The translations under genes were made by a program, and so were the position numbers. A stretch of DNA of 64,000 nucleotides, taken from positions 14,399,035 through 14,463,034 of the forward strand of contig NC_064772.1 of NCBI RefSeq assembly GCF_011397635.1. Reading direction: 5' to 3'. Position 1 is the first letter of the stretch. Each line of letters starts with the position of its first letter. The notes under the pieces were generated by a model. It ran no database searches. It had not been told where the DNA came from and was given only the letters and a program-made list of their open reading frames with translations. This DNA is from Epinephelus fuscoguttatus (Eukaryota; Chordata; Actinopteri; Perciformes; Serranidae). Positions 37,891 through 64,000 of the stretch are shown one piece after another.

Positions 37891-39699
37891 TCTAGTGAAT
37901 GAGCAACGAGTGAAAAGAAACCAAAATGAACAGATATTTTAACAGCTGCTCCTTGTTGTATCTCATCGTGTTTGACATGTTCAACAGACAAGCTTCACAG
38001 TCGGTACTTTTGTCAGAGATGCAGGCCTTGATCCGAGAACTGCACCGGGAGACAAAATAACAGTAGGTTAATTCAGTGTGTCACATGAACATACAGTGTG
38101 TGCATATAGAATTGTCTAGCCTGTCACCTGCATGGTCAAGTTCTTGTTAAGTTTAAGCAACTAAAACTGCTTGGTCATGGTTAGGAAAACCTTGTCATCA
38201 TGGCTTTGAGAAACTGGTACTGACTGAAGTCAAATGCTGTTACCCAGATCATCTACCCTAAAATCCAGATCATTGACTAGGAAAAACATAATCAGAGGTT
38301 TGCAGAGGATGCTGTCACTGTCTCCTTCTCTTGCTCATGCTGTACTTACCAGGGTACGTCCCTACAAGTAAAATTTATTCCTTCAGGCAGTATGGTCCGT
38401 ATGCTCTGTACATTTGCTGAGTCACAATTTGACCTAAGTTGGAGAAATGCAGAAAAAGGGAAAGAAAGCTTTGCTCAGATTTGCCCAGTTTGTCTTTCTG
38501 CTTTGTAGCAAACCAAAGCAACCACTGAGCAAGAATTTGACATCCTTTTATCTTTTTAACATTACATTCACTGAACAGGGATGGCACATTATCACATGCG
38601 CAGAAAAATGACAATGATGTATACAATGTATAATTAAAAACAATAAAAAGACAATTGTACACTTACTTTTTTCCAGCAATCAGAATGACTTTCATGTTCT
38701 TAACTTTAGAGGGATTTAGGTTAGGTATCTCAATGCTTCCAAATGTGCTGCCAGCAAAAATAAATGAACAGAATTTAGGATTACATCAAGTCATTTTAAC
38801 AGTGTTTTTACACAAAGCAGCATTCACGTTCATAAGTAACGGGTTCCTTTTGCAATATTCATCAACACGTTGTGTGTCATGAAATAATGGTGGCAAAACA
38901 AGTTAATACGTTTGGATAGATATAAATAAAACACTCATCTGAAAGAATAAAACTTTTTTTTTTTTCGCAAACAAGAATGGCATTACATTATGCTGTACTT
39001 TACATTTATTCCAACTGACTTTCATCTTCATCAGCCTTCATCTTGTCTCAGCCTGATCCCAATTTAAGACCTTTAAATGGTGTTTTTTTGTTCTCTCACT
39101 GCAGTAATCTGTACTTGCATGAAATAATCAGTAGCTCAAGGAATAGGATATTCATATCCAGAACAATAAAAAATATCACTGTCCTTATCTTACTGTAGAT
39201 AAAAACTTTTATCCCTGCACTTGATCTTTATTATAGAGCTGTGTTGATTGCACTTGCTGTTGGTGCCCAGATTATATAACAGGACAGAAGAAGGACATTA
39301 ATACCAAGTAAAACTGACTGAATGCACAGAGGATGCACTTTTCTGGCCAATAAGCACTGCTTCCCCTCCTCCTTAGAATATTGCAATGTTGTGATTGCAA
39401 AAATTAATGCAAATTCAACCTTGTATTTGGCTGTGAAGATGCAGACGTGCAACACTAACGTCTGACATTTACCAACAAAAATTACTGCTAAAGACTGAGC
39501 AATGCAGTTCCCTGGTGTTAAAATGCATGCAGTGTTGTGGTAGAACACAAATGAAAGTCCAGATGAAACGCCCAGACAGCAGACAATACAAATCACCATG
39601 ACAGAGGCTGTTGCATCCACGTCCACTGCATGTGCTGTAATATTCAAGGTGAGTTAGATGAAATATGCATGGTTAGTGGCAATGTTAGTGTAGTATAAA

Positions 39700-39800
39700 T
39701 CACAAAGTGACCGAGGCATGCTTGCCTGATTGTGTGTCAAACTGTGTGTGTGCATGCATGCATGTGTGCGTACATGTGCACTTGCGTTCATGTGTGTGAG
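39700..39800. repeat. TG/CATG-rich simple repeat
   Basis: GTGTGTGTGCATGCATGCAT and neighbouring alternating purine-pyrimidine sequence, inside intron 5 of copy A. Confidence 0.7.
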
Positions 39801-40794
39801 AGAAATTTAAAAAATAATAATTTAGGCATAAACAGTCTCGATTAAAATGTTTAAACATGGTGTGCAAGCTATATTCAGCCCCCTGGTAAGGGTATTTAGA
39901 ATGCTCAGAACAGCCAGGTTTATACTCAGTGGAACAAGTTGCCTTTGGTCTTTCATGGTTGTTTTTTAATTGCTTAAATATTTTTGCAAGCATAACTGTG
40001 AATAAAGATGGACAACATGACAGCTCCCAGAATGTGAAGCCAAATCATCTCAATCACCCCCTTGTGACTGGCTGCAGTATATATCATAAACCTTGCCCCT
40101 ACATGTTAGCAAATGGGACGTGAGCCAAACTAGAGTAGCTAAAAAGGTCATGTCCAATAAAATTTTCCCAAAGATGGTGTCCATCATTTTTGTAGTTCTT
40201 ATCATGCTGATGTATGTTCAAGAGTTCAGTGTTTAAAAGTGTGCTACCAATCTGTGGCGCTGCTTGTGATTGGTTGGACATCAAGAACTCAATACTGCAG
40301 AGATTACTACTGTTGTTTTCTGAATATTTTGGCATCATTTTTGTACAGTGGGAGGGAGTGGAGATGCATCTTCCATCTTTATAAACAGTCATTGGGTTGA
40401 ACAAACAGTTGACAGAGGAAGTATCGTGCTCACCTTGTGTTCTTAAACTGTTCATCACAAGATCCATTTAGCATTACTATGACTTCTTCACAAGCATAAC
40501 TTGCAAACTACAGACATGAAGACATAATTGTAAAGACATTATATTCTTAGTCCAAAGGTCCAACATTTCTCAGGCATGTGTAGCCTGATTTTTATACAAT
40601 ATATTGTATAAAATTTTGTAGTAATGGTTCCAAAGTAATCTGAAAATTGCGTCCCTGGCAACTAAAGTATGATTAACATTTTTATGGTTAAGTTTAGGCA
40701 TTTTTAAACACTTTGTTTACGTATATTATACAGGATTTTCCCTAAATCAACTATGTATATACTCCTACAGAATAATCCCTCTCAGTCATCACGG

Positions 40795-41045
40795 AGACAC
40801 TGCCTTCTGCCTGTATTTTCTTACTATCTTCTTATTTTCTGTGCTCGGGATGTCTATTGGCATGTACCCCCACAGTGCTCAGATGAGGCTGGGGCTTTAT
40901 AAAAAGGTAGTGACCAGGTGCCAGACAGTAAGCAATAGGCATCCCAGAGACAAAGTGCAGAGAAAAACGCAAATACAGCGAGGCGAAACGTCAAACACGA
41001 GTGAATCTGGGGTTGGCTTTTACTTTCACTTTTGCTAGTGAGCAT
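40795..41045. repeat. Interspersed repeat shared with 22205-22520
   Basis: The shared blocks are described at 22205-22520. This copy lies in intron 4 of CD38-like copy A. Confidence 0.55.
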
Positions 41046-41394
41046 GGTTACAAACAGAAAAAATCCTGCATAGTATATTTTTATGGTTAGGGAGAGATTG
41101 TGGTTTTGCTTAAAGTGAAAACAGACGAGTAAACGTTGACTGCACCAAAAATAAGTAGTGGTTAAACTTAGCTTGTATATTCTGTTACGATCAAGGAGTT
41201 GCTAAGCACACAGATGGTTTAATATTTGAAGATGCCACCAAGTAAAGTTAGGTAAACTGTAGTTGCTGAGATTGGTGGAAAACAGAAAGCGGTTGGGTTA
41301 TCTTTGCAACAGTGCCAGCAGCGCCTACAATTATAATGTGGCCTACCACTTGAAAATACTAGGGGGCAAAAAGTTAAAAAGTTGTCTGCTTCCA

Positions 41395-42540
41395 CTTTAG
41401 ATATTAAAAAGTCAGTGCTTTCCACCTCATGTTGACGAAAACTACCAGGAAAATTTTTCATCAATGACCATTTTTCAATGACGAAAACCTGTCAAAAAAA
41501 TTTGCTAAAAAAAAGATATTGATAATTAAAACTAAGATGAAATCTATGTTCCATCAACGTAAGAAAAATGTTAGTGGTGGATTATCTGACTTTGAAAGCC
41601 AAAAATGGCTGTATCCTTAATTATCTTCAGAAGCCACACGAACGTCTAGTCTGCGCAAGGATGTTTCACTAACCAGCAAAAACACTCACACTGGAGCTGC
41701 GTTAGCTGTTGGTGCGAGTTGGGAGCTATAATTCAGCAGTAAATCATCAGCAGTGTGTGTCTGACTGTAGATGGTGGAAGTGTTAAACAGATTTTTGGAG
41801 TTTGTTAGTTACAGCACAGGGGTCCACTCAGATCCGGACTGTCTCAGGAAGGTTTATGGTTTGATGCTGGAGAGGCAGATAAGAGGCTCAGTTATCTGTG
41901 AGTATAGCTGTGCTGTAAGTAAACAGTCTAACCCCAGATCAGTTTTCTGTGACAGCTGAAAGGTTAGTTCCAATCACCAACTCTGTGAGACATGAGTTGA
42001 AACCTCAAAACTATCATGTTGCAGATTAAAAAGAATTCAGGCTTTAATGGAGTTATTTCTTTGCTTCTCAACAGTGAGATCGATAAGTCAGAGTTTACAA
42101 TTAACCTGGGTACAAATCATAGTTGTCTCAGATTAGTTATTTGTTTTCGAGAACATAAATAGAGAAATGTTGAATCAGGTTTTTTTTCTTTAACCTGTCA
42201 AATACTGCTGAAGAAATGACAGTTTGTAAGTGTGCAGAAATTATTTGTTGTTGTAGAAAACAATGTCTAAGTGATCTTTTTTTATACAACCTGTCACCTT
42301 CATTTTTGATACCTGAATTAGCCTAACTGTTTACGGATAAAAAACATATAGAAAACATAATGACTAAAAGTAATGACTAAAACGTTTTGAATTTTTGTTG
42401 TCTATAACTATACTAAAACTAAATAAAGGATAAAAATGACTAAAAATGTGACAATAACTACTAAGCATTTTTGTCTCAAGACTAAAACTAAATTAAAAAT
42501 AGCTGTCAAAATTAAAACTGGTTTTATGTCAGTGTTCACC
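41395..42540. repeat. Diverged interspersed repeat (GACGAAAAC / ACTAAAACTAAA type)
   Basis: It begins near TTGACGAAAACTACC and ends with blocks of AATGACTAAAA and GACTAAAACTAAATT, typical of a widespread fish repeat. It lies in intron 4 of copy A. Borders are approximate. Confidence 0.4.
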
Positions 42541-43904
42541 TTTCTTTTGTAAACAAGGAAAACTTAACCAAGTGTTTCGGAGGCCTCAACCTAGCAACAC
42601 TTGTGATAAACGTTGGTTCTGTTTGTTTCTTTTTTACTCTTTTTACCTCTTTGTTATCCTTTTGGGATGTAGGCTAAACATATTTTTGATCTCAGGGTAC
42701 AGGCTGTTATTCATTATCAAATCTGTCTTGCTGGGAACTTGCTTTAGCAGAGGCACTTCTCCCGAATGAGGTGACAGGGTTGGTCTCACATTCATTGCGT
42801 CCTGGGCATGGATAACAGTATGTTTCTAGAATAAAACACATACACACAGAGAATATATTCACAAACGGCAGAAGGAGATACAGTACACAACACATACTAA
42901 ACAAAACACTGAACTGAACTAATTGGGACCCACTGGTGAAGTGGTCTGTTCTACAACATCTGTGACGTCTTACCATTGCTGTTTTCCTTTCCACACCATC
43001 TCCTGTTATTCAAGAAACGTCCCAACCAAGTGTCCTCCAGGGTGTAACAACCTTTATTCTTAGTTTACTTGTGGACCAGATATTTTGTATTGCTCCAGAG
43101 CATTGTCTTACCAAAACAATTGAAATCACATAGTTAAATGTGTAATTCTGCACTACAGAAGAAGTCTGCTCTGATTAGAAACAGTGCAAGAAATGACTGA
43201 TGTTTACCTTTTCACATGAATGATTGAAAGTGTAGTGGCTCATGAACTCATCATAGTCACTTTCCGTAACGTTACATTTGTCCTTCCCTTTGTAGGCTCT
43301 TTCAAAGAGAGACCACGTCTGTTGACAGCTGATTCTAATAAAAAAGGGAAAGAACATATTAATTGAAATGTAAATCAGACTTATTTTGCCACATACTGTT
43401 TACTGTAGGTGTAAAGATAAAGTTTGACATCTCGAACATTATCTACAAGTTATTGGTACCACCCACAGTTTGTCAAGCAAACAAAATATCAGCACACAGT
43501 TTCATCAGATAATGACCAATGATTTTTATCAGGTAAACAGAATTTAAATAAACTTTACACAGTACAAAGTCTTACTTTTGGTTGCCTTTCTCACATCTTT
43601 TCAGGAAACATTTGCGGAATCGTTTTGTTATAGGGCCCTGAAAAACATCATTACAATTTGTTAGCAAAACACTGCAAATAAAAATGATGCCTACTGTCCA
43701 CTGCCAGGACATGATAGAAGTGCAGATCTCTTTGTCTGAAAGGTTTGAGGAGGTTGAGAGTTGTTATTGAAGATCTCACACTCACTGTGCGGATGTAAGT
43801 CCCTGCTTATTGCTACTATAAATGTAGAGCTGTCCAAAGTTCATGAAGTAGCCATCAAGGTTTTAATGGCTTCATAAAGCCATAACAAACATGAAAAGTG
43901 TCCT

Positions 43905-44492
43905 GTAAAACAGGCTCCAGGGGTTTTTCTGAATTAGATCTGCACTCCTGAGCTCTGCAGACAGACAAATAACATGCAGTCATCATAGTGTGTGAGGACA
44001 GAAACTTAAATGTGGTCACATCCTCTCGCACAAACATGTTGTTCTTCTGCAGTAAATTCTTTACAGCAAGTTCCAAAAACAACAGACGCATTTCAGCCGT
44101 AAGCGTACGCTGATTTTTGCTCTGCTGCCTAGATTAAAAGATCTTTAAAAGGACATTTGTGAGTGCTGGCCTCCTTTGATAATTCTTAGTTTTTTTGTGG
44201 CCGTATACCTCATTCATTTTTTTCTATTTGAGTGTGCTCACGTGTTTGCTCTTAAAGAGGTGAAATGCACAAAGGATACACACCAGGACCAATTTTCCAA
44301 GTGTACGTTTGTCTTTTGCCCCAATATTACTCACTGTGGAAGACCATACAGAACATGTATGTTCTAATCACTTTCAAAACAAACAAAATGAAAAATAGTG
44401 TTGCAGAAGTCATGTACACTATATAAGGAGAAAATCTTACACAATGTGTTCCTGTGTTAACAGACCAACAACGAGGCTTCTCATTCTAGGGG
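43905..44492 (-). pseudogene. Relic of a fifth CD38-like copy (E)
   Basis: At about 43965-43905 the minus strand has an acceptor CTGCAG and then AGCTCAGGAGTGCAGATCTA, matching the start of the last exon of copy D (AACTCAGATTCAGGAGTGCG), but the terminal cysteines are lost. At about 44492-44437 it encodes RSLVVGLLTQEHIV followed by donor GTAAGATT, matching the end of exon 6 in D (KSLNVVLVTQKSAV and GTAAGATT). The intron DNA between also resembles D (GACAAATAACATGCAGTCA). No other exons of this copy were found. Confidence 0.65.
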
Positions 44493-44574
44493 ACTTGAAA
44501 CCAACTACTATGTATATAAAGCAAGCCTACTGAAATTAACTGAAGCCGAGCACCACCGCTTTCAGAGGCCTAAC

Positions 44575-44797
44575 CTAGCAACACTTGTGATAAACCTTGG
44601 TTCTGTTTGTTTGTAACAGTATGTTTCTAGAATAAAACACATACACACAGAACATATTCACAAACGGCAGGAGATACAGTACACAACACATACTAAACAA
44701 AACACTAAACTGAACTAATTGGGACCCACTGGTGAAGTGGTCTGTTCTACAACATCTGTGATGTCTTAACACCACTGTTTTCCTTTCCACTCCGAGG
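44575..44797 (-). repeat. Partial duplicate of copy A exon 3/4 region without exon 4
   Basis: It matches 42585-43000 nearly base for base (GGGACCCACTGGTGAAGTGG, CTGTTCTACAACATCTGTGA, CCTAGCAACACTTGTGATAA). About 195 bp containing exon 4 is missing, and exon 3 is cut after its first ~25 bases, with a damaged donor (GTCTTAACACC against GTCTTACCATT). Confidence 0.75.
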
Positions 44798-45764: not shown

Positions 45765-48697
45765 TCACCAGCAGGCTCCACAGGCATTGTTTTCTTTAAT
45801 GCACTTCCGTATGTGAGATCTACGATGAAATAAAATAACATGAAGTTTACTGCGTGAAGAAGCAAACATACATGTAGAGGTGACTGTGTTGTGACAACAG
45901 TAGCATGGTGCAATGTCACTCATTATTTCTGTGATTGAAAAAGTCTGAACTTACCGAGTCACTTCCTTGCAACTATAAAGAATTCCTTTTTGAGCCAGCT
46001 CGTTCTTTAGATTCTGTAGAGATTCATTTTCATTGCACTTTTTCCTGATAAAAGAAATGTAGAGAGGATACGACAAAACAATTGTTTTATTGTTAATGTT
46101 TCCCAGTTTGTATTGTTAAAGAACCACTGCAGAATAATGTATTCTTTTATTCCTTGTTTACACAAAAGTGACAACCACATAGAAATATAATGTGTCTATA
46201 AAGCAGAAAATCTTACACATTTTCCTTGTCAGTGAGCAGAACAATACTGAGGCGCGTCACCTTTGGGTAGAAGAGTCTCTTTACCTCAATGCTTGCAAAA
46301 ATACTAAGAGCAAAAGCGAGAGAGGAATGTTAGGATTACAGAACAGCTTCATTGGAGTTCTTACATAAAGCAGCGTTCAAATGTATAAGTAAAAGCCTGA
46401 GTAGTTTTTGGCACAGAGAAAGGACTCATATAGGATGTATTTACTTAAATTCTTCAAAGGCCTGTTTGTGGAAGATAAGGTACCAAACATCACACTACAA
46501 CACACTAACACACAGTGAAAATACTGTATCTCTTAACCTTAAAATTCTTTTGAGTTTAACCCCACTGTTTCATTTAAAATCCAGTGTGCTGCAGTACATA
46601 ATCATAACAATAAAACTGTTCATATACTTTCTGACTACAATATTCTGGTACTTAATCTGTGCAAAAGGTTTGTGTTGATTCTTGTCAAAGTGTTGTATAC
46701 AACATAACGTTAGAGAAACGTTGTACAATTTTTTTTGTCATCATTAACTTTTTAGAAAGCTGTTAATAAAACACAGAGTGTCGTGCTGCCTACCTGTTAG
46801 GATTGTATGGTGTTTTCAGGCCACCATTCAGCATTGCTGTTACTTCACCACTTGCATATGCTGCAAACTACAGACATAAGAATATGATGGTTAAGTCGTA
46901 AAGAAATATGTTTCTCAACTTGTGTTTATGTTTAAACAGGTCCACCTTTACTGTACTTTCAGACAGATAGATACGGACAAAAGCCAAAAAGGGCGTGCGG
47001 CAAAAATATTTGACAATTTCTAATCACAGTCAGCCTTGCACCTCACCATCTGTGTTGCCAATTTCCTGTCTCTAAAATGTTTGTAAGACGTTTCTCCCAT
47101 CAAGTCTGTTTTTGTAGATTACAGGAATTGATGAACACCTCTTTCAGGATTTGTTTTGTGGGTACGCAGTGTTTATAAATGAAACTCCAGGTCTCAATTG
47201 TAAAAGAAATTGTTGATATTACTGGGACTTCATTCATTCTCCATAACCACTTATCCTGTTAGGGGTCACAGTGGGACTGGAGCCTATCCCAGCTGACACT
47301 TGGCATAGAGGCAGGGTACACCCTGGACAGGTCGCCAGACTATCGCAGGGCTGACACATAGAGACAAACAACCATTCACACTCACATTCACACCTACGGA
47401 CAATTTAGAGTCACCAATTAACCTGCATGTCTTTGGACTGTGGGAGGAAGCTGGAGTACTTGGAGAAAACCCACACTGACATGAGAACATGCAAACTCCA
47501 CACAGAAGGGCTCCCCCCACCATGCCGCCTCATTGGGACTTAATATACAGTTGCAGTGGATGTTAGTGTTAAGATACTGCACAGGGATTGTTCCTGACAC
47601 TATGGTGAAACTAGTGATTTCCTGTTGAGCACTTACCCTGGCAGAGGCATTTTTCCAGAATGAAATAACAGGATTGTTGTTCTTCATGAGTTCACAGAAC
47701 ACAGAAAATGTCTCTGAAAAGGACACAGAGAACATGTTTAGAAATGTTACTGTTGAAGCTTCAGTCTACTTCTGTGTGAGAGTTTTCAGACTCCGGACTT
47801 CTCAAACACTTCATTCATCTAACTGTGACTGATATCACAATATATTCCCATTTTTCAGAAGGATATAAAGCAAACATAAACTATTAAGTTACAAATGTGG
47901 TTAAATGACTGCTGCCAACCCTGTATCTGTATCTTTGCTGTATTCCTTGCCTGTGAGTTGCTAAGTCTTATAGCTTACTGAACCGAACTGATCATTTATG
48001 TAAGGTTATCTGTTGCTTAGCTCCTGACAGATCTCACCCTTGCTGCCTTTCAGTCCACACCACTTCTGACCATCCATTACAAATCCCAACAGAGTGTCCT
48101 CCAGGGTGATAAAACAGTCTCGCTTCTTTGTGAAGTCATGGACCAGCGCTTTGGTGTCACTCCAGAGCATCGTCTAACCCAAAAAAAAGTTGATATTACA
48201 TCATTACCAGTACTTTTGCATTGTGGATCTGAGGCAAATCTGCTTTGGTCAATGTGTGACACAGACAGTCATGTGATCATAGAAGTTTACTTTGTTGCTT
48301 GAATGTGTGAAGGGGATCTTTTCAAAGAGTGGATTATAGTTTTGCTCAGAGAAGCTAAATGGCTCCTTATCGACATAGGCTCCTTCAAAGGTATCCAGTG
48401 TATCTTTACAGCTGAAAAACAAATACAAGCACTTAGTACTTTATTGAGGACACACGTCCCTATTGTTTCTCGCAATTGCACAAATAATGTTCTGTTCACA
48501 ATAAGAACGTTTATTCAAAGGGAAACAACTTTTATTATCAGTACAGAGTCTGACCTGTGGTTGTGCTGCGGGAACTCCTCACACCTCCTCATGAATGTTT
48601 TCCTGAACTGGACTGTTTGAGGAATAAACAGCACCAGCAGAGACACCACCACTCCGACCCCAAGGACTCCAACACCAACGGCCACGACACGTTTCAT
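45765..48697 (-). CDS. ADP-ribosyl cyclase (CD38-like) copy B, two disulfides missing
   Basis: A likely type II membrane NAD glycohydrolase/cyclase. Exons are 48697-48555, 48411-48291, 48173-48038, 47713-47637, 46867-46794, 46303-46217, 46044-45955 and 45819-45765 (783 nt, 260 residues, no stop, GT-AG throughout). The N-terminus MKRVV leads into about 21 hydrophobic residues, a signal anchor as in CD38, then RRCEEF. Catalytic positions kept are W in TMLW, E in TLEDTLLG, W in SFW and E in FASIE. In exon 2, DPC of other copies is EPF and SCNK is SSNK. In exon 5, AC is AS. In exon 4 the Cys before NNP is replaced. By human numbering the lost residues are C99, C119, C180 and C201, two whole disulfide pairs. 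The product ends CGACW. A SINE-like repeat sits in intron 4. Confidence 0.9.
47230..47515 (-). mobile_element. SINE-like repeat in intron of copy B
   Basis: This is the same family as 34855-35152, with CCTGGACAGGTCGCCAGACT, CTTTGGACTGTGGGAGGAAG and CCACACAGAAGGGCTCCCCC. The tRNA-like head is missing. Confidence 0.7.
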
Positions 48698-50104: not shown

Positions 50105-50597
50105 CTAAATACAGATTGTTTTATTCATTTATTTATTTTATTTAAAACTTCGGGACACAAATTGAGGGACGCCCTCATTTTCAGTGGTGCCGAGGTACAT
50201 ACAACATACACAACTTAAAACAAGGAATGAGGGAAAGCTGAATAGACTGCAGGACAAAGAAATCCTTCATGAAAACCTACTGCAGAGCACTCAGGACCTC
50301 AGACTGGACCGAAGGACAGCGACCCTTGGCACACAGCCCAGAGAAAGCAGGAGTGGTTTAGGGATGATGTGGGAGTAGCCGCACCAGAGCCCTGACTTAA
50401 ACCCTATCTCTGGAGAGACCTGGAAATGGCTGCTCACTGACAGTCATATCTAAAAAAAATTGTCACCTTGTCATCATGGTGTATTGAGTGGAGATTGATG
50501 AGAACGAATTTAAAGAATTAACGCTTAAGGCTGCAACATCACAAAATGTGAAAAAAGTGAAGGTGTCTAAATACTTCCTGAATGCCCTGTACATGTT
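50105..50597 (+). mobile_element. Tc1-like transposon relic (second family)
   Basis: It ends in AAAAAAGTGAAGGTGTCTAAATACTTCCTGAATGCCCTGT, the well-known end of a fish Tc1 family. Upstream are fragments reading KEILHENLLQ and CACCAGAGCCCTGACTTAAACCC (SPDLNP box). The first ~120 bp is a TTTATT-type flank. Confidence 0.7.
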
Positions 50598-51002
50598 TGT
50601 TTTCTTGTTTTAAATAAAACCAGACAAACAATTCTGTAACACAGCTGTATGATCTGTTCTTTTGCTCACCAAACCTGTTATCTCAAGATCACTTCACACA
50701 GTCATTAGATTTTACAACACAAAGATATAACACATTTCCTTTTAACATTTTATTTTAAAAATACTTCAGGTTTGGCCAACAAATAGGAAGTGAGATCACT
50801 TTTCCACCCTACAGCCCAAATTACCAGAAGTTGAATGTCTTGTTTTTTTGTTTTTTTTTTTTAAATAAATCAGAAAATGTTCCCCTAAATCAGAAACTTT
50901 ATCAGTGAATACAAAATGATTGTACTAATTACGTAAAAAGAAAGACAATCTTCAATCAGATATTTTAACTACTTTCTGTTGTGTCTTGTAATGTTTGACA
51001 TC

Positions 51003-53063
51003 TTATTTTAACACCTTTGAAAAACAGGCTCCACAGGCTGCGTTTGTGCTGGGGGCACACTCCTCAATCTGGGATCTACATAGGGAAAAAATTACAGGAA
51101 GTTAATCTACTGTGTCACAAAAACATTCAGTACATGTTGGCCATGTATCTGGGAATGATCAGACCTGATAACTGCATCCTTAAATTAATAGTCTCAAAAT
51201 ATATGGGTACATTTTTTTTGTTTCAGAGCTGAAAACACTAGAATAGAATAAAACTTATTTGAGTATAAAAAAGAAAACAAATATTCCATATTTACTAGGA
51301 AAAACAAACAGAGGTTTCTGTCAGAGTTTAAATAAATGACCAGTTTTTCCAGTCAGGAATCTCCTTCTCTCTCACATGCTGGACTTACTTCATTACTTCC
51401 CTGCAAGTGTAACCAATATTTCGATCCAGTTTGCCCCGTAAGTCCTGTAAACTCTGCGTGGTACAATCTGACCTAAATTGGTGAAACATTGGTAAAAAGT
51501 AATCTTCAGCAAAAATTAAAACAGAATTTAGTAGGATTATATTTTTTAAAAAATCACTTTAATATGGTGTTTTTTTATGAAGCAGTATTAAAGTTCAGAG
51601 GAAAATTGTTCATTTTGTAATAAAGATCAACATTTATCGGCTTCACGTGTTGTGTGTCATGAGATCATTAATTACCACATGGCAAACAAGTTAAGAGGTT
51701 AGGACAGCTAAAATTAAAACACTCAAAACAAAATATTTTTATGTGTGTTTCTTTAAATGTAAATGAGAGACCTACATTTGGATCCCTCTTCTACTATTAG
51801 GCAATTTTATACCCAAACACTGAAAGTGTCACTGAGGACATCTAGAAGAGTCATTAAAGCATCTATGTATATAAAAGTCAGACACAGTAGTCACTGCATA
51901 TTGAAATCCAAATAAAACAGTGGTGTTAAATCAGTAACACATATTTTTCTTTTGTCATACATAAGTGTTCATTAAATGCTCATGGTAATGTTGACAGGGG
52001 AAGTGTAGAGCTCACCTTTTGGGATCAAACGGTTCTTTTTCCGATCCACTTAGCATAACTGTGACTTCTCCACAGGCATGCTCTGCAAACTAGAGACATG
52101 AAGACAGGATGTAAAGACATGTATGTAATTTATTTGGATTACAGGTTCACCACAGTGAGAGAAATAATGACAAGAGAAGAAAAAATAGATAGAAAAATAA
52201 AACACAAAGCAACATTGTGAGTGAGTAATAGGGCAACACTTGTAGTAACGTCTTCAAAGAAAATGTTCATAATAAATGTTTTGTTTTTTTTTAATTCTCC
52301 ATTCTTCATGTTTTATATTTTCCCAGAGTGATACCTGCTCCTGGCAGGTTACATTTAAGCATCTTTGAGCACTTCAAGGAGAGACCTTTTAGTAAAACGC
52401 TTCTTAATAATAATAATACATTAGATTTATATAGCGCTTTTCAGGACACTCAAAGACGCTTTACAAAGAGCAACAACAGAAATCAAGCTTGATCCCACAA
52501 CTGTTGTATTTATTGACAAAACTAGTGATGTCTTGTTTATCGGGCACTTGCTGCAGCAGACGCTCTGTACCAGAATGAGAGAACTGGGTTGTTCTCACAG
52601 CCATCAAACCCCGGGCAGCTGGTAGTGCATGTTTCTAGAACAACACACACAGGTTCAAACAGACTTTATTTTTTGCCATTTCAATGTCCAACTCCAATTG
52701 CAAAAACACATTGGGACACTGTGTAAAATGTAAATAGAAACAGAATGCAATGATTTGCAAATTGTTTTCAACCCGTACTCAGTTTAATACAGTAATAATA
52801 CAACATTTGATGTTCAAACTGACAAGGTTCACTATTTTATTTGTAAATATACACTCATTCTGAATTTGATTCCTGCAGCACATCTCAAAAAAGTTGGGAC
52901 AGGAGCAACAAGACTGGGAAGGTTGTGAAAAGCTCAAAAAACACCTGTTTGGAAGATTTCACATGTAAACGGCTTAACTGGTATGATTGGGTATGAAAGG
53001 GGCGTCCTCAAAAAGCTCATAAGCAAGGACAGTGTGAGAGAAAAAAGAGGAAAAGGACTGATA

Positions 53064-53118
<55 letters not shown>

Positions 53119-54443
53119 GCCCATGGCATCATGGGTAACTTGAACATTTGTGAAGGCCAGTCCTCAAGGAAGTGTTGCAGGTTTTAAAGCTAATTTTCAT
53201 AGTGGCCAATCAGTGGTACTGCAATTTCCAGGGTCCATCACATTATGCCCTGAAACCCAAAAAGACTTTTTCCCATTGACTTCAGTTGGGATTGAGACAC
53301 CTATAAATCAGTGGATACATTTTTTTGAGCACCACAATCCCCGTGAAATAACTCACCTGATAACATTTTGAAAGTCTAGAGGAGCTGCAAGATTAGATCA
53401 TTTTATCAAAGCACTGAACCACCACTAAGCAGCTTTCACAGAAATGAATGGGGCCCCGCTGCTAATGCTGTATCCAGTTCTCCAAATACAACTATGGTGA
53501 AGGCACCATGAATCCTGAAAGGTACATGTAGGTTTTGGAGCAACATATGCTGCCATCCAGATGATGTCTTTTTCAGGGACTTTCCTGCTTATTCCAGCAA
53601 GACAATGAGACACATTCTGCACATGTTTCAACAAGGTGGCTTCTTAGTAAGAGAGTAATCATCACTTACTAAGAACTAATTGAGATTCATTGATGATGTT
53701 TTTTTTTTTTTTGTCCAGCATCTAATGAGTCTTACCATTACTGCCTTTCCTTCCACACCATGTCTTGTTATTCAGGATGCATCCCAATAGAGTGTCTTCC
53801 AGGGTGAAACAATCTTTAATCTTTCGTGTGTACTTGTGGACCAGATGCTTTGTTTTGCTCCAGAGCATTGTCTAACCAAAAACAGTGGATATCACATAGT
53901 TAATTATGTCTAAGATGTGAAGTGTGCTCTGAAGAGATAATGTGCAAGAGCCTATTTACTTTGTTACATGAATGTCTGAGGGGGACTTCAGCCATTAAGG
54001 GGTCATAGGCTTCCACAGGAACATTACATGCTGGCCTCCCTACATAGGCTTGTTCAAAGACAGTAAATATATGTTGACAGTAGTCTTCCCATTTCTCACT
54101 TATTGAAACAAGCAAATAATTGGTATCAACTAAAGTTCGTCAAACACAAACAGGTTTCAGGGTAAAAGTCTAATTCAATTTACATATGCCGAACATAAAA
54201 GGTGTGCAAAGACTGACAGAATGAAAATCATCACAAAGTTCAAAGTACTTACTTGTGGTTTCCCCCCATGAACTTCTGACATCTGTTTATGAATTGTGCA
54301 GAGAATTTTTGTGCAGAGAATTTTTGTCTTTGACAGCGCAGCGCTCCCAATAAAGCCACAACAACAATCACTATGATGCCAGCAGCAATTAGGTATAGGA
54401 TCCAATTTCTCTTGTTAAGAGTGTAACACTCTTTGTACTCTAC
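51003..54443 (-). CDS. ADP-ribosyl cyclase (CD38-like) copy C, catalytic-Glu exon deleted
   Basis: Exons are 54443-54253 (5' limit uncertain), 54098-53960, 53871-53736, 52634-52552, 52089-52016, 51472-51389 and 51075-51003. No exon 6 exists between 52016 and 51472, although the DNA flanking it in A and B is present. Exon 5 (phase 2) joins exon 7 (phase 1) as AG/G, and the frame stays open to a TAA after CGACFSKVLK. The hydrophobic anchor ILYLIAAGIIVIVVVALL is followed by a short duplicated stalk (KFSAQ twice). Exon 2 begins after a weak acceptor (TTCAATAAG). Exon 4 uses a GC donor (GCAAGT). Kept residues are W in TMLW, E in TLED and W in SFW. The catalytic Glu segment is lost. No in-frame ATG is visible in the first exon before a TGA, so the start may lie in a further exon or be lost. 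It could be expressed as a non-enzymatic protein or be a young pseudogene. Confidence 0.75.
52405..52490. repeat. Short interspersed repeat fragment
   Basis: AATAATAATAATACATTAGATTTATATAGCGCTTTTCAGGACACTCAAAGACGCTTTACA is a very common animal repeat type (TTTATATAGCGCTTTTC and GCTTTACA blocks). It lies in intron 4 of copy C. Confidence 0.7.
52688..53660. mobile_element. Tc1/mariner-type transposon relic, broken
   Basis: It begins near CCAATTGCAAAAACACATTG, CAGAATGCAATGATTTGCAA and CTCAAAAAAGTTGGGACAGG, the 5' half of a fish Tc1 family. The part 53510-53640 (GGTTTTGGAGCAACATATGC, CAGCAAGACAATGAGACACA) matches 45040-45110 in the relic at 44830-45412. A TG microsatellite has expanded inside. 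Confidence 0.65.
53065..53116. repeat. TG dinucleotide microsatellite
   Basis: A pure (TG)26 run inside the transposon relic. Confidence 0.98.
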
Positions 54444-55481
54444 CTGCCGTTGGTCCTCTTTTTGTCATCCGGCTCTAGTGCTTTGCTGTCTGTATTGTAT
54501 TTGTTCTAAGTCCACAGATCGTCCATATTGTATTGCCATGAGTGCTATTGTCTTCAAGTTACATTATAAAGTCCCAAATATTTGAAGAAGCTGAGATGTG
54601 TTATTGAAGATCTCACACTCACTGTGTGGATGAGAGCAGTTCCTTTTTGCTGATAACAGAGGAGCTGTTTAAAGGTCATGTATTATAAAAGTGCTATAAA
54701 ACTTTTACAATTAACAATAACAATTAACAGTTTAGTTTCACATTCGATGTTACAGGGCTCTACTTATTATGATAAAGATTTATATGGCTGTTATATAGCC
54801 ATGCTATGTTAAAACAAATATCATATGCAAGTGTGACCAGACAGTATTTAAGATCAATGCAGTGAGCACTATTGGTGCTTTTACAAAATATATACCCAAT
54901 TCAATTTCTGATCAATAATCACCAGTAAAGTGGATATAATGACAAGGTCAGTAAAGGCAAATAATAGAACAGCTAGATCAGACAACACTTATGATATTAC
55001 CATATTCAAAAAATGTAGATGATATCTAGCCTCATCGTGATATCAATATAATATTGATACATGGCTCAGTACTGGTTTTGTGTGATTCATGTAGATGTGT
55101 TTTTTTGTTACATCAAAATGATTTCACAGGCAACCATCTTCACACGATAGAATCCACAGACAATTTCCCAGCCTCATATTTCAACATTTTATTTAAAAAC
55201 ATTACAAATTCTGCCACCAGGTGGGAGTGAGATCGTCTGTTCAATGTGATTAGATAGCAGCATTGGTATTTCACCCTATAGTACATGGCACTGGTACCAC
55301 AGCTCTAAGCTTCCCCGTCACACCCAGAACCTTTTCACTACAGAACACAAAGGTGCATTATCATGTTGTAAAAATGTATCAGTGACATTTATATAAAAAC
55401 ATTTCACATCAAGTCAAACTGGCCCACAGGTACAAAAGGAATGGACTGCATAACAAAACATTATTCAATTTACAAAGACTT

Positions 55482-58400
55482 TCACCAGCAGGCCCTACAG
55501 GCTATGTCTGGGTTGGAGCCGCACTCCTGAATCTGAGTTCTGCAGTTGGAGACAAACAACATGCAGTCAACATAAGACAGAAACATACATGTGATGGCAT
55601 CCCCTTACTCAGACATGATGTACTTACTCAGCCACTTCCTTGCAGCTATATTTAATTCCTTCAGCCAGCTCTTTCTGTAAATCCTTTAAAGATGCATTTG
55701 TGCAGTTTGTCCTGAAGAGGAAGCAGAAAACACAACTTTAGAATCGTTCTCAGTAATTTTTCCTCAGGAACTTTCTCAGTATGAGTTTGGCTTTCTGCAT
55801 ATTTGTGTTTTATTTGTGTTTCTATGGAAGAACATTCACACATTCACAGTTGACAAAAAAGGACAAACATGATGCAGAAGTCTTGTAAATAAGGAGATAA
55901 TCTTACACAGCGCTCTTCTGTGTGACCAGAACAACATTCAGGCTTTTCACTGTGGAAGGTTGGAACCTCTTCACTTCGATGCTTGCAAAAATACTGACAG
56001 CACAAATAGAAGAGAAGAATTTACTCAGCTAAAAAGTTCATGTACAGGATTTAGCAAGTGATATAAAAGAATTAAATCTGACAGATGCTTCTTGCACATA
56101 CTTATCAACATTTTGACATTTTATTTAAAGGCTTAATTATTGAACATGAACTAACACTGCACTTTTATTTTATCTTTGTATTTTGCGGTGCACAGCATTC
56201 TGTTGTAAATTACTCCTAAAATGTTTACTAAAGGACGTGTGATAATCTCACAGATTTATTCTCTTGTTGCAGTAATGTTAACGGAAAGGGATCAGGGAAC
56301 AAAATGCCAAAGAAATCTGCACATCTAAATAACTCAAAGCAGAAACATGATTATTTAAAAGATTGTTGGTAATATATACCTAATCCACAAAATCAATAAT
56401 GTAGGAATGTGAAGGCATTAAAAAATTATGTTGTTGGTGTTTGCTAAATGAGCATCTAAAACATCAGTCACCTAAAACTAATATAAGCCCAGAATGTAAA
56501 ATACTTTTATTATGCTTTGTATTTTTTACAGAGCAAATCGCAGAATTTAAAACACAGTTTCAGAGCTAGAATTGCAGTTGGTCCGGTGCACTCAGTATCC
56601 TCACAGTCTTCGTAATGACTTAATAGTTGACTGAGTTTGCTTTTGGGGTGGTCTGACATAACTTTGGCTTTAGGAGATCATAGTGTTTATTTTGTACAAT
56701 TTCTGATGTTTTATTGACTCAACAATGAATAGAGAAATGATGTGAACCCATTTTTTCCAGTGTGATGAAAAAAAGATCCTGTAAGTCATTATAATGAGAA
56801 ACTTTCTTGTAATAATGACTTATTATCTCAAATAATACTAAGTCATTATTTCAAGACACTAACTTGTTATCTTGAGAAAGTTTCTCTTTTTTGAGATTCA
56901 AAATAATAACTTTGAGATATTAACTAATTTTGAAAAAGTCTCTTATTATTTTGAGATATTAAGTCATTATTTTTGAGAGCATCTAATTATTTTAAGATAC
57001 TAAGTAATTTTGTTGCAAAAGATTCTCACTATTTTTATATACTGAGTAATTTATTCGAGATATTAACTCATTATTTTGAAACACTTCTCATTATTTTGAG
57101 ATAAGTACTGCAAGTTGTCATTTTGAGAAAGTTTCTCATTATTTAAAGATATTAATTTATTATTTTGAGAGTTTCATAATGACATACTGGACCATTTTTT
57201 CATCATGCTAGCAGAAATGGGCTTCCATACATAGGAATTAATCTACACATTAACTGACAGCAGCATGGTGGCGCATTGGTTAGCATTATTGCCTCACAGC
57301 AAGAGGGTTGCTGGTTCAAACTCATGGTTTGGAGCTCTTCTGTGTGGAGTTCGCCCCTGTGTCAGTGTGGGATTTCTGCGGGTGCTCCAGTTTCCTCTCA
57401 CAGTCCAAAGACACTGACTCTAAACTGGCCGTAGGGCTGTAGGTGTGAATGTGAGCGTGAATGGTGACTGATTGTCTGTCTCTATGTGTCAACCCTGTGA
57501 TAGTCCAGTGACCTGTCCAGGGTTTCTTCTGCTCTGCTTCTCACTTAAGTCACGAAAGATGTGCAGTGCAGCTCACCTTTTAGGATGGAATGGTGTATTG
57601 ATGGAGCCGTTTAACATTGCTGAGACATCACCACAGGCAGCATCTGCAAACTACAGACGTGAAGAAAAGTCAGTGCAGCAGCTGCACCTAGAAGAATTAA
57701 TCTCACCAGGTGAACAAACACACACTGAAAGCTGCAAAATAGTCAATGTTGATGTTACACTAAAATATGGGATGGATCCAGAATCTCTTTTTGTGAGGTA
57801 GATACCGAGTCTTTATCAGGAAGTATGAAGCTGAATACAAAATATCAGTGTGAGGCACCTTTATTCCACTTTTGGAAATGTGATACAAGGGTCACATATA
57901 CTGTCAAAATGTTTCTGTTTCTGTTTTCACAATCACTACAGTGATAATTCCATGAAAACACTTCTTCTACTTAGCTATGATCCACCCTGAGTTGACCGAG
58001 TGTTTCCAAGGCGGTATTCAAAAATCTAGGTGTAGACAAAACAACAAAACATGTACTGCCTTGAAAAACTTGTTAAGAGGACTTTCCCATGAAACGTAAT
58101 GTTATAATAACTAGGTGAACAGCAACACATTCCAAGCATGACAACACCTCCAGAGACTTCACCACCCAGTTGTGTAGTTGACGCCACTAGTTGGGGTTGT
58201 GTGCAGCAGTCTTGGCCACTATGTTTAATTTTCTTTAATGTATTCTTCAATGTATTGTTGCACTACAACATTCTCTGTTAGCTTATCAGCAGCTGTAAAT
58301 GTTGTTCCTGTTAGGTGTGGTCACAGGTGCACCAGAGCACACTGTCAGGCAGTCCAACTCACTGACATAATGCTTTCCAGTTCCTCTTTTAAACATATCA

Positions 58401-61400
58401 GTTTGACTGTGAACACATGTGTATGCAGCTTTATTTAATGCTGACTGTGTGTCACATAAGCAGTTTCATTTTTAACAATTGGATCAAATATAGAAGTCAT
58501 TAAACACTGAATATAATTGTTAGCAAAAGGCTATTTTTTTTTTAAATAAAATGTATAATTACAGTCATATTATTCTTAAACTTGCGACAACTAATTGACT
58601 GACTGTCATGTGTTGCTGCACAGCTTTCTGAGAAGAAAAAAATTGTCTCCCCTGCACTCCCTGGACTTTCTAAGGTGACGTGAGGTCAGATATTCCTTTG
58701 TATCACAGCCACTGTGAAGCTGCTACACTTTCTTAAGGATGCCAGCAGCAGCTAACATGCATCTGTATGCTATTTTAACCTTGTGTGTTTTAATTCTGTG
58801 TCAGGCTTCAATTTTATGCATAACACTTTGTTCTACATGCTGTTTATGGTTTGTTTTGTGTGTCTGCATGTCGGTAATTAATACTGCATTGAATCTCTGT
58901 GGCTTTGTTTTGGTTTGGTGAATATGTGGTATGTGTCGGTAGTTCCTTGGCAGAATAAAATGCAGAGAACCAAACAAGGCTCCTCTGAATGTGTGGGTTG
59001 CGACTGTTCGCTCAGGAGAGAGCTACACAATGTGGCTCCATGGAGACCGACACAAAGCCTCATTGATGAAGAACCAGGCTGACTGACCTTTTTCTCTTCT
59101 CCTCTCCATCATCATCACTTATACGCAGGAGAGATTTCACCTTATGCTTCACATATGTGTTATTTTACCCCCTGCTTGATCCCTCAACTGTCGTGTTTTT
59201 GGCAAAACTAGTGAATTCTTGCTGAACTTACCGCAGTTGACACTCTGTTCCAGAATGAGCGAACAGTGTTGTTCTCACAGTCTGTCCATCCTGGGCAGCC
59301 GGTAGTGAATGTTTCTGGAAGAACACACACAGAGTCAAAACTTTCTCCATTTCAGTGATAAGAATTTGCTTTGCTGAGCTGCTCACATAGAACAAAGCAG
59401 AAATCTCAGGACAGCACATACTCACACTGAGACAGTAAATAAGTGATAAACAACTTAAACAGAACAGTCAAACAACTACAACTTAATGCATAAAAAGAAT
59501 ATGTTAATGAAACACGCGTTAAATGGTCAGCACTGTGTACATATGATCACAATATCCTGTGGATGAGTATCATAATAACACCTCTGACGCACTGGAAGTT
59601 AAAAGTCCAGTGTGTTGGATTTATGGGCATCTATTGGCAGAAATGGTATATAATATTTATTACTATTTACTGTTTTTGTCACCTTATTATGAGCCATTTA
59701 TATCTACATACGGATTTCTGACCAATGGGCCAAAGCTGGCCCGAGATAGGGTGCCAGGTGGCTCACTGACTATTTTCTAATTCACAATCAAAATATAAAT
59801 ATGGATTCACACTTGGGATTTTTTTGCACTTTCAATGTAGATAAAGTGCATAAAAAAAAAACATCAAATGGAGATTTTTTAAGGACCAGGGGAGGATTCC
59901 CTGACAGAGGTTCGGGCTAGACCCTGAATAACCTAAAATCCTAGAAACACCCCTGTGTACACCTGACTTGCACAGGGCTGCTGCAACTGGATTTGCCTCT
60001 TGGCAAAGATGAGTGAGAGCAGCAAATGTTGAAAGGTTGAAAATAGGGATGCATGATACTGGATTTTTTGCCGATATCCGATATGCTGACATATAACAAC
60101 TCATTTGGCAAATAACCAATACTGATACTGATATATCCATTCTTTTTCCCACCTAATTTTAGTAATCATCAAGTATTCTCTGTAGTGGAATTTACATCAT
60201 ATAAAGCATGCATATGTTTATCGTGATGGCCCACCAGCAGATGGAGACATGAAATATAATACTCTTTATGTATGTAATATTCATTCATTGTGCAAAGTAA
60301 GAAAAAGCATGTTGGCCGATTCTCATAGTACATTTCAAAGCGAATATTAGACAGTTTTGATGATGTGCCATCCCTAGTTGAAAACAGATGATTAATTTAC
60401 TGATTAATATCATTAATGTTTATCAACTGGCCCCTGGCCTCCCGCCATATTGCAAAAGTGGCCACCAGGCAAAAACAGTTGAGTATCCCTGTCCTTCATG
60501 CTTGGCAGATGGGAAAAGTATCTGTTTTGCAACCTCACCACTAGATGCCACTAAATCCCACACACCGGACCTTTAAAAAAATACTTTAACATTTTAGAAA
60601 ATGCACTGATTGACTTTCTAGCCTGGTCCCAGCCCTAAAAAGCCTGCCATGTATAATTAACATTAGATCATGGCCAATCCCGTCGACGTGTTTGGAGATT
60701 TATATAATCAATAAAGTTACACGGCTGTACCTTGTGCACAGCATTTTTACTTTATCTTGTCAGAGCTGACCATTGGAACAGTTTATGTAACATTGCCAAC
60801 TCATTATTAAGTGTGTTGTCATTTAACAACTAGTCTGCCAACAGCAAAGCTAACATGTCTACCAGCACCTCAAAAGCTCACTAATTAATGAGTTATGTCT
60901 TGTTTGTTCAGTCCGCCCAAAACTGGAGTAGAAAGAGCACGCTGTGATTTTAAGACAGAGACTCCAAGAAGTCACTTTGCCTGGCCAAGCTAGCCAGGCT
61001 ACCTGTTTCCAGTCTCTGTGCGGAGCTAAGCTAACTGGCTGCTGATGGTAGCTTAATATTTAGCATACAGACATGAGATTGGTATTGATCTCTCATCTAA
61101 CTCTCTGCAAGAAAGCAAATGTGTATTTTCCAGAAGAAGGGAGGGAATTCAAAAGATGCTCTTGAGAGGAAATATGTTGGATTTTTTTTTTTTTAAATCT
61201 TACATCAAATTTTCTGTAGGCTAAAGTTGTTTAGCAAAGGGATGGTAGCTCCTGGGTGATGATTTCTGATGACATTTCTTGAGCTGTTACTGCAAAGGTT
61301 ATCATGCTCTCAATACAAGCATAATAACACTGCATCATTTCTTTCTGTGTTATGTAAACTCCATGTGAAAAGTTTGATGGGTGCTTGGGGCAGTTTGGGA

Positions 61401-62104
61401 ATCGGTGCAAGGTCTCTGAGACTCATAATGGGCTTTAAAAAAGCTTGACATGACTTGCCATGCTTTAACATGATACTCTCTACAACACAAATGACACCTC
61501 TGGCATTTGACACCGGCATGTATACCCATGTACTTAGGTCGCAACACACGCAAAGGGCATGAGAAGTCTTTTACTTAAATAAAGCTGTCATCACAAATCA
61601 CTGAAAACATGTTTTTAGATGTAAAATAAGGTACTTCACATTCAGAGTTAAAAGGCTGATGCTCTTTTAATCTATTTTGTGGATAACAAACTAAACTGAG
61701 TTTAACTTAACCCAGTTATGAGGTTATCATGAAGAGTCTTACCACTGCTGCCCTCCTTCCCACACCAGGTCAGACCATCCACCACATTTCCCATCAGAGT
61801 GTCCTCCACAGTGATAAAACAATCTTTCTTCTCAGTAAAGTCATGGACCACATGCTTTGTTTTGCTCCAGAACATCATCTAAACCCCAAAACACAGTTGT
61901 TAAATGTATGATTCTGCATTATAAAAGAGTGGCTAATGTGCAAACAGGCACAAAGTGTTGTGATGAGTGGTGTTTACTCTGTTGCAGGCAGGTTTCAAAG
62001 GGGCTGCAGCAATGAAGGGGTCATAGGCTTCTGGTGGAACTTTACAAGGGTCCCGTCCTACATAGGCTTCTTCAAATGCACCCCAGACCTTTTCACAGTC
62101 GTAT
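55482..62104 (-). CDS. cd38: ADP-ribosyl cyclase / cyclic ADP-ribose hydrolase (CD38-like) copy D, exon 1 not found
   Basis: Exons are 62104-61978, 61878-61743, 59314-59232, 57650-57577, 55993-55907, 55711-55628 and 55539-55482. All are GT-AG, with the same phases as copies A-C and no stop before the TGA after CRACW. Enzyme features present are YDCEKVWGAFEEAY with DPC and PACNR, W in MMFW, E in TVEDTLMG, WCG, CPGWTDC, W in SFWNR, FADAACGD, E in FASIE, and the terminal cysteine pairs. By human CD38 numbering this covers W125, E146, W189 and E226 and the cysteines C99, C119, C160, C173, C180 and C201. It is the only copy here that keeps them all, so it is the best candidate for a working NADase/cyclase. 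The N-terminal exon with the membrane anchor was not found up to position 64000. It probably lies beyond the window. Introns are longer than in the other copies because of repeats. Confidence 0.9.
56780..57185. repeat. Minisatellite of ~35-45-bp units (TTTTGAGATATTAAG type)
   Basis: Degenerate repeats of TAAGTCATTATTTTGAGA and AAGTTTCTCATTATTTTGAG occur about ten times. The array lies in intron 5 of copy D, between exon 6 and exon 5 on the plus-strand map. Confidence 0.85.
57262..57540 (+). mobile_element. SINE-like repeat with tRNA-like head
   Basis: Head AGCATGGTGGCGCATTGGTTAGC, B-box-like GGTTCAAACTC, then TCACAGTCCAAAGACA and GTCTGTCTCTATGTGTCAAC. This is the plus-strand member of the family at 23105, 34855 and 47230. 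It lies just outside exon 5 of copy D. Confidence 0.75.
58000..59200. other. Intron 4 of copy D, nothing coding
   Basis: The short ORFs here lack recognisable domains or exon context. Confidence 0.5.
60036..60384. mobile_element. hAT-like MITE with perfect 8-bp target duplication
   Basis: The element 60044-60376 begins TAGGGATGCA and ends TGCCATCCCTA, forming short inverted repeats. It is flanked on both sides by GTTGAAAA (60036-60043 and 60377-60384). An 8-bp duplication with such ends fits the hAT superfamily. The inside, with CCGATATCCGATATG and CCAATACTGATACTGATATA, is non-coding. It lies in intron 3 of copy D. Confidence 0.85.
61010..61140. repeat. Interspersed repeat fragment related to 28440-28600
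   Basis: GAGCTAAGCTAACTGGCTGCTG followed by GTAGCTTAATATTTAGCATACAGACATGAGA is the inverse of the flank of the TTAGC microsatellite at 28495-28550. Confidence 0.6.
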
Positions 62105-62299
62105 CTGAAAAACAAGTGACAGTGCTGCTTAGTGATCAGCTTCACTCTGCTGAAAAAGCTGAACTTCAGGAACAAACATGATGCAGACTGTGTGTAAATC
62201 AGTTCATTTTCTATATTCACTGACATACTTGTTATATTGTGTTTGAAACATGAACATAGAGAAATTATTTATCTAAGAAAATAGCTTCATGGTTGAGAA

Positions 62300-63222
62300 C
62301 AGCCCAGTTGTCAGAAGAAAATGTTGGCATTGTACGTTTCTGTTCACTACAGATGTCACATTTATGCTTTTCCTATGTATCACATCAACGCTTCTAAAGT
62401 GAAGCAGTGTATGAGCTGACTTTGTCATCAGGAGGTGGAGGGGCAACCAAACATGGGTGTTCTCAAGTGACCCGCTTTTGAATTTCTAGCAGCTTTTGTG
62501 CCACCAAACTTGGGTGTTTTTTAGTGACCTGTGGTTGCCTTTTGTGGGGCTTTTGTGCAATCAAACATGGGAGTTCTTTACTGATTCCTCAGTTTATTTC
62601 AAGAGGCTTCTGTGAAACAAAACATGGGTGTTTTTAGTAACTCTTCAGTGCATTTTAGATCACTTTTATGCAACCAAACACGGGTGTTTTGAATGACCCA
62701 CAGCTGCATTTGCAGCAGCTTTTGTGAAACCAAACAAGCATGTATTTTAGAGACCTCAGGCTGCGTTTCCAACTATTGTACAACCCAACATGGGTGTTTT
62801 CATGCGATATGCGGCTGCGTTTTCAGTTTTTACATTGGTGCAACCAAACGTGGGTGTTTTTTTATTAACTCCTCAGTTAATGGCTTTTGTGCAACCAGAC
62901 ATGGGTGTATTTTAGTGGCCTGTCAGTGCATGTCCAGGGGTGTGTGCAACCAAACAAGTTTTTTTTTAGGGCCCTTCAGTTACATTTCCAGCAACATTTG
63001 TGCCAACAACTATTGATGCTTTAAGCCACAATATAATCTTTTCCCAACCATAATGAATGTTTTTTTTGTACTGACACATAACCACACATTAATCACAGCA
63101 TTGTTGAAATGTAAAAGAAAACATAAAGTTTCAAAGTACCCATTACATAATAATGTACAATGCAATATAGCCATGGTTTGCAGGAAGGTACAGTGCCAAC
63201 TTTTATTCTGGAGATTGGGTTG
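62300..63222. mobile_element. MITE-like element with internal ~60-bp tandem repeats, copy 3
   Basis: The left end CAGCCCAGTTG...GAAAATGTTGGCATTGTACG is mirrored by the right end GTACAGTGCCAACTTTTATTCTGG...GATTGGGTTG in inverted orientation. The core (62450-63000) holds about nine units of GTGCAACCAAACATGGGTGTTTT type. The right subterminal region (GCTTTAAGCCACAATATAAT, ATTAATCACAGCATTGTTGA) matches copies 1 and 2. Confidence 0.7.
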
Positions 63223-64000
63223 TTGAATAACAGTTAGTCTGGTATCAGTATCAGTTAATCAGTCAATATTGGCTTAACTGTGTACATAATACAGACAAAT
63301 ATTATTATAGCTTGTGGAGCAGCCTCATCCAGATTGGTGCAGGGAGTTACATATTTTTAAGATTTGTAAGAAAGGCAAACCTAAAAAAAAACTGCATCAT
63401 GTTTGAAAAGCACCTTACACAGTTTGTCCAATTTATATTTCCAGTTATTATTGGCTTAATTACAGCAAGTAAGACAAACTACAGATAAGTTAGAAACTGC
63501 ATCGTCATTACACTGCATGTGCAAAGGACAGACAGGCTACCACAAGAAGAAAACCAGTCATGTAATCATTGACCAGAGTCCAAAGCAGACCAGTGCTTTT
63601 GGGCTGAACTCCAACTTTAGCATTTAATTTACTTTCTGTCTTTCCGGATAGCACTCATTTTTATTACACACCTCCCTGTTTGCTTGATACAAATGCAAAT
63701 CACTGGTACTGTACATGCCATGACAGCTGGAGCGTGCAAACAGACATGCACACACTCTGCCTCCCATTCATGATATCACTGTTTCTGCATTATAATGTGT
63801 TCGTTTAGTAAGTTAACCACTAATACAGCAGTCCTGCCATAATAAGATGTTGATTCAACTGTGTGATCATATTGCGTTACACAAAGAGGCGTTTTATTTA
63901 GCCTATCCTTGGTTATAGGCTATAAACCGGATGGACATAGAAACACCTGTCAGGATGAAGCAATACAACACCACAGACTACATCCTCCAAAATGACCATA
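63223..64000. other. No exon recognised; upstream flank or intron 1 of copy D
   Basis: I looked on the minus strand for an exon encoding a hydrophobic anchor followed by an RC-type motif and a phase-2 donor, as in copies A-C, and did not find one. Confidence 0.4.

Follow-up and report, generated by a model that had tools for sequence, protein, structure and literature searches.

A CD38-like tandem copy of Epinephelus fuscoguttatus that lacks the exon for the catalytic glutamate is probably a recently disabled duplicate

Copy C of a tandem cluster of CD38-like genes in the fish Epinephelus fuscoguttatus has lost exon 6, the exon that carries the catalytic glutamate, and is probably a recently disabled tandem duplicate of cd38 in a cluster where birth and death of genes are fast. 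In immune cells, CD38 breaks down NAD and produces calcium messengers; it also has a receptor role. A genomic copy without the catalytic exon would be a natural test of the receptor role of CD38 standing alone. On present evidence, the locus offers a good snapshot of how tandem duplicates die and diverge.

The CD38-like cluster and the ancestry of copy C

The window, the whole stretch of 64,000 nucleotides that we analysed, contains on its minus strand a tandem cluster of CD38-like genes (PF02267). The copies, A to E, were modelled exon by exon, with exon 1 of D and all of E placed on extended coordinates. There are five of them, not the four counted in the initial annotation, since the fifth (E) lies beyond the window.

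37963..43712, minus strand: copy A, eight exons; the reading of exon 8 runs on below 37963
43065-43067, minus strand: stop codon TAA in exon 3 of copy A
42761-42763, minus strand: Gly in copy A instead of the active-site Trp (Trp189 position)
45765..48697, minus strand: copy B, eight exons, open frame of 260 aa
51003-54539, minus strand: copy C, seven exons, exon 6 absent
55482..64000 (part in the window), minus strand: copy D, eight exons, 275 aa; exon 1 at extended 64195-64373
69486-77643 (extended coordinates), minus strand: copy E, exons 2-8 open, exon 6 present, more diverged

Copy D is enzyme-like, B has altered cysteines, A and C are broken, E is more diverged, and a relic is also present. 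D matches human CD38 at 1.7e-46 (with a query one residue off the final D model) and PF02267 at 273.1 bits. C, the other copy tested against this profile, scores 191.5 bits (cut-off 25), its best stretch covering profile positions 2-164 of 241. The eight-exon layout of A, B and D is that of human CD38, whereas C has seven exons, without exon 6 and without an in-frame start. Copy A had been treated as intact, but it has both the TAA in exon 3 and the Gly at the Trp189 position. A frameshift suspected at the exon 4/5 junction of B was dismissed, the frame of B being open with the correct donor. Exon 1 of E was not found with a hydrophobicity filter applied up to extended coordinate 104000.

Between A and B, at 43948-44793, lies a relic with stretches that match the exon 6-8 region of D at 70-74% and, beside them, a 93% copy of part of the exon 3-4 region of A. 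A stray fragment of exon 6 (~44440-44499) is found between these two copies. Since A itself is broken and a relic lies between A and B, copies do die at this locus.

C appears to share its most recent ancestry with A, judging from codon models and shared introns. Of three topologies compared under the codon models, the best pairs A with C as sisters and leads the runner-up by 11.8 lnL. The two copies share introns, and both have an unusual GC donor after exon 4 (42743 in A, 52552 in C), where B, D and E have GT.

Exon 6 is missing from copy C

All features of the C gene model are on the minus strand.

54253..54539, minus strand: exon 1, modelled from the AUG at 54539; TM-like segment ILYLIAAGIIVIVVVALLG after the TGA
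54465..54467, minus strand: TGA in the frame of the TM segment, 24 codons past the sole upstream in-frame AUG in 54253-54700
53960..54098, minus strand: exon 2, acceptor AATAAG
53736..53871, minus strand: exon 3, Trp125 equivalent and TLEDTL; Asn at the Asp155 position
52552..52634, minus strand: exon 4, Trp189 equivalent kept; GC donor, also in A
52016..52089, minus strand: exon 5
51473..52015, minus strand: single intron between exons 5 and 7, without exon 6; break at 51506/51507
51389..51472, minus strand: exon 7
51003..51075, minus strand: exon 8, ending at the stop TAA at 51003-51005

The 12 modelled splice sites, whose boundaries were picked to fit, are GT-AG with one GC-AG. For exon 2, the acceptor is the one of two AGs weighed by eye that keeps the frame; compared with A, D and E, it is 12 nt farther from the first cysteine codon, on the upstream side. 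Exon 1 contains a perfect 15-bp tandem duplication at 54294-54323, in frame (KFSAQKFSAQ).

Exons 5 (52016-52089) and 7 (51389-51472) of C are intact, as initially described, with canonical donor and acceptor sites, and the interval of 543 bases between them holds no exon 6. In an anchored alignment with A, 318 bases of A (38434-38751), made up of intron 6, the 81-nt exon and GCAG, face 34 bases of C (51473-51506); by the lengths from coordinates, C is 284 bp shorter in this region than A, its closest copy. The initial annotation had recognised intron DNA just upstream of the exon 6 position, and homology between A and C indeed extends across the last part of intron 5 as far as TTTTTGCTG, 4 nt short of exon 6 in A. 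The junction is a clean single break, and the acceptor AG of exon 6 is also missing from C. A profile HMM of exon 6, built from A, B, D, E and human CD38, gave 49-53 bits on the fish exons of A, B, D and E (its own training sequences) and at best only -1.7 bits in the six frames of C from 50500 to 55160. A moved or decayed exon 6 in C was sought with this HMM and with single-exon tblastn, and nothing rose above chance. The anchored alignment and the HMM null together confirm that the exon is missing, and the window contains no N. Because exon 6 is present in B, D and E, the loss is derived in C.

In A, B, D and E, exon 6 starts and finishes in phase 2, and exons 5 and 7 of C do join in frame, as had been proposed. 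The in-frame junction is automatic, however, because the exon is phase-symmetric (2-2), and survival of the frame is thus uninformative on selection. The loss had been put at about 27 residues including the catalytic base. The equivalent of Glu226, encoded in exon six of human CD38 (PMC9033130), is gone from C together with this exon, but the figure of 27 residues holds only for A (29 in B and D, 31 in E). "Base" is also too simple a label for the catalytic residue that was lost, since in bovine CD38 this glutamate is described as forming a covalent intermediate (PMC3329556).

It is scarcely credible that C is still an active enzyme that draws its exon 6 from another place in the locus or, by trans-splicing, from a neighbour. 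We found no point in support of this explanation; the six frames of 50500-55160 contain no match to exon 6, and the sole stray exon 6 seen is the fragment at ~44440-44499. Alternatively, the missing exon, the TGA or both could be a feature of one haplotype or of the assembly, with an intact C in other individuals. One assembled haplotype was looked at, and tandem copies are prone to structural variation. We nevertheless consider this quite improbable, given a genome of 1.05 Gb in 26 contigs, a window free of N, the clean single break at the junction and an identity among A-D of 55-62% over aligned codons, which makes the copies too different to collapse easily.

Active-site residues and cysteines of copy C

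In an alignment with human CD38, C retains the TLEDTL signature and both active-site tryptophans (TLEDTL, MLWSK and SFWYR), and with them the equivalents of Trp125, Glu146 and Trp189, the human numbers being in part counted from TLEDTL. At the position of the active-site Asp (Asp155 in human and Asp147 in bovine CD38), which was located by counting from TLEDTL, B and D have Asp, whereas C, A and E have Asn. C also has all 11 of the human cysteines in the aligned piece, human Cys296 lying beyond that piece. Five residues are given for the active site of bovine CD38 (PMC3329556); C keeps three of them, the two it is without being Glu226 and Asp155.

No usable start found for the membrane-anchored frame of copy C

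A type II membrane protein would need its own start, and in A, B and D an AUG is located at or before the TM-like segment in the same exon. C has the TM-like segment but, in 54253-54700, no such start. This stretch contains seven AUGs; five are out of frame (1 to 41 codons), and the other two share the frame of the TM segment. The AUG at 54539 runs into the TGA after 24 codons, and the one at 54269 lies past the TM segment and would yield a 201-residue product without it. No usable AUG for the TM frame, free of an intervening TGA, is found in 54253-54700, and there is no CUG, GUG or ACG among the 20 codons between the TGA and the TM segment. The anchored alignment of exon 1 of A and C is too weak to equate the AUG at 54539 with that of A.

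An upstream coding exon could supply C with an AUG, and we view this as possible but unlikely. Upstream of exon 1, A and C have a stretch in common (76% identity over 102 columns) that comes to within ~30 bp of the AUG of A, and a separate first coding exon in C would therefore not be expected.

C has two of the properties of an unprocessed pseudogene: tandem duplication as DNA with the introns kept, seen in the intron homology with A, and disabling lesions, namely the deletion of exon 6 and a start frame blocked by the TGA.

Selection on copy C and the age of its open frame

If C encodes a working protein, purifying selection might be visible in comparison with the other copies. We fitted codon models, in our own implementation, to 259 columns (at least 3 of the 5 sequences, D present), with the stop of A masked and C counted from after its TGA; synonymous change is large, which makes the dN/dS estimates rough. 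With A and C free, dN/dS was 1.04 on A, 0.72 on C and 0.36 elsewhere, and fixing C at 1 (A free) cost 0.37 lnL. With C alone free, dN/dS was 0.90, and fixing it at 1 cost 0.03 lnL. The profile for C, read off a grid, spans ~0.37-1.7 within 1.92 lnL. The comparison with the other copies thus does not show purifying selection on C, the value of 0.72 (~0.37-1.7) being indistinguishable from 1. Freeing C from the background gained 1.4 lnL (A not free) or 1.7 lnL (A free), neither significant, so ordinary constraint is not rejected either.

Pairwise dN/dS was 0.74 (NG86) or 0.93 (YN00) between A and C and 0.45 (NG86) between C and D. Identity between A and C was 75.4% in exons and 81.3% in introns by BLAST segments, a measure that flatters introns because it counts alignable intron only. 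A neutrality test of exon against intron identity was set aside: global alignments with cheap gaps gave shuffled controls that were nearly as high for many introns. The A-C introns that stood above shuffled controls were intron 2, intron 7 and part of intron 5.

Past the TGA, and leaving exon 6 aside, C reads open for 265 codons without a stop or a frameshift. In a neutral simulation of 4000 copies, 0.2% were stop-free at 0.6 substitutions per codon and 0.05% at 0.8, the range of the fitted branch length of C. At 0.1 substitutions per codon, 27% were stop-free, so that a recent death of C is compatible with the open frame. Given that the seven exons are open and that cysteines and active-site residues are kept, long neutral drift of C would not be expected, and C appears, from its sequence, to have been protein-coding for most of its history. 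The pattern in A, whose modelled length contains one stop, is largely similar. Either A and C both died recently, or C works with a start that is unseen.

Explanations for copy C

The history of C probably proceeded as follows. C shares its most recent ancestry with A, and the alignment shows that, since the two parted, a deletion in the C lineage (284 bp net relative to A) has taken out exon 6 along with its acceptor and the greater part of intron 6. Splicing is then predicted to join exon 5 to exon 7 in frame, the exon being phase-symmetric, and the product would be without the catalytic glutamate and the neighbouring loop. With no AUG found for the membrane-anchored frame, C most likely gives no surface protein. 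The remaining open frame would be the remnant of a gene that was protein-coding until recently.

C had initially been read as a working non-enzymatic paralogue. This reading is possible but weaker than that of a recently disabled duplicate, because the in-frame junction is automatic, no usable AUG was found and dN/dS is not distinguishable from 1. In its fuller form, C would be a working CD38-like membrane protein without enzymatic activity (a receptor, a decoy or a partner of D) whose start lies in an unrecognised 5' exon. We lean against it, while granting it some plausibility. The other seven exons are open, the 11 aligned cysteines and the splice sites are kept, and the venom glands of a snake make an NADase transcript in which exon 6 is skipped in frame and all six disulfides are encoded (PMC6368836). 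However, 54253-54700 offers no usable AUG and contains the in-frame TGA, the upstream stretch shared with A would make a separate first coding exon unexpected, and the dN/dS of C is not shown to be below 1.

An exon-6-less CD38 thus has a precedent, as described in the source on the snake. The transcript is from an NAD glycohydrolase gene of Protobothrops mucrosquamatus, skips exon 6 in frame and has a function not known to its authors (PMC6368836). Like C, it has lost the same exon in frame, keeps the conserved cysteines and is without the catalytic glutamate (PMC6368836). The snake transcript, however, arises by alternative splicing from a gene whose eight exons are intact, whereas in C the exon is gone from the DNA and the full-length form is impossible (PMC6368836 for the snake). 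C is also unlike the snake gene in that there is no usable AUG in the stretch examined. We speculate that C could be a genomically fixed exon-6-less CD38, catalytically dead with its cysteines intact, that serves as decoy or receptor beside an active D and starts in an unrecognised exon, although this is unlikely. If true, the same exon-6-less protein would have been reached in two lineages, by splicing in the snake and by deletion in the fish.

Tandem CD38-like genes on one fish chromosome, similar to the cluster here, have been reported (PMC8669677). In the parts consulted, that paper makes no mention of an exon-6-less copy, and the word "pseudogene" has 0 occurrences in it. We found no exon-6-less fish cd38 in print in searches of one open-access library.

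Other observations in the cluster and the window

Copy B has lost all four cysteines that align with human C99, C119, C180 and C201, while its catalytic residues are kept. In CD38 these cysteines presumably form the disulfide pairs C99-C180 and C119-C201. Hydrolysis of cADPR is reported to require Cys119 and Cys201, and two conserved cysteines are noted as missing from a zebrafish CD38-like protein (PMC9033130). Because the cysteines lost from B include these two, copy B might be biased towards cyclase activity.

Elsewhere in the window, at 19970-20611, there is an open frame of 213 aa with leucine-rich, F-box-like repeats that resembles FBXL7 by eye.
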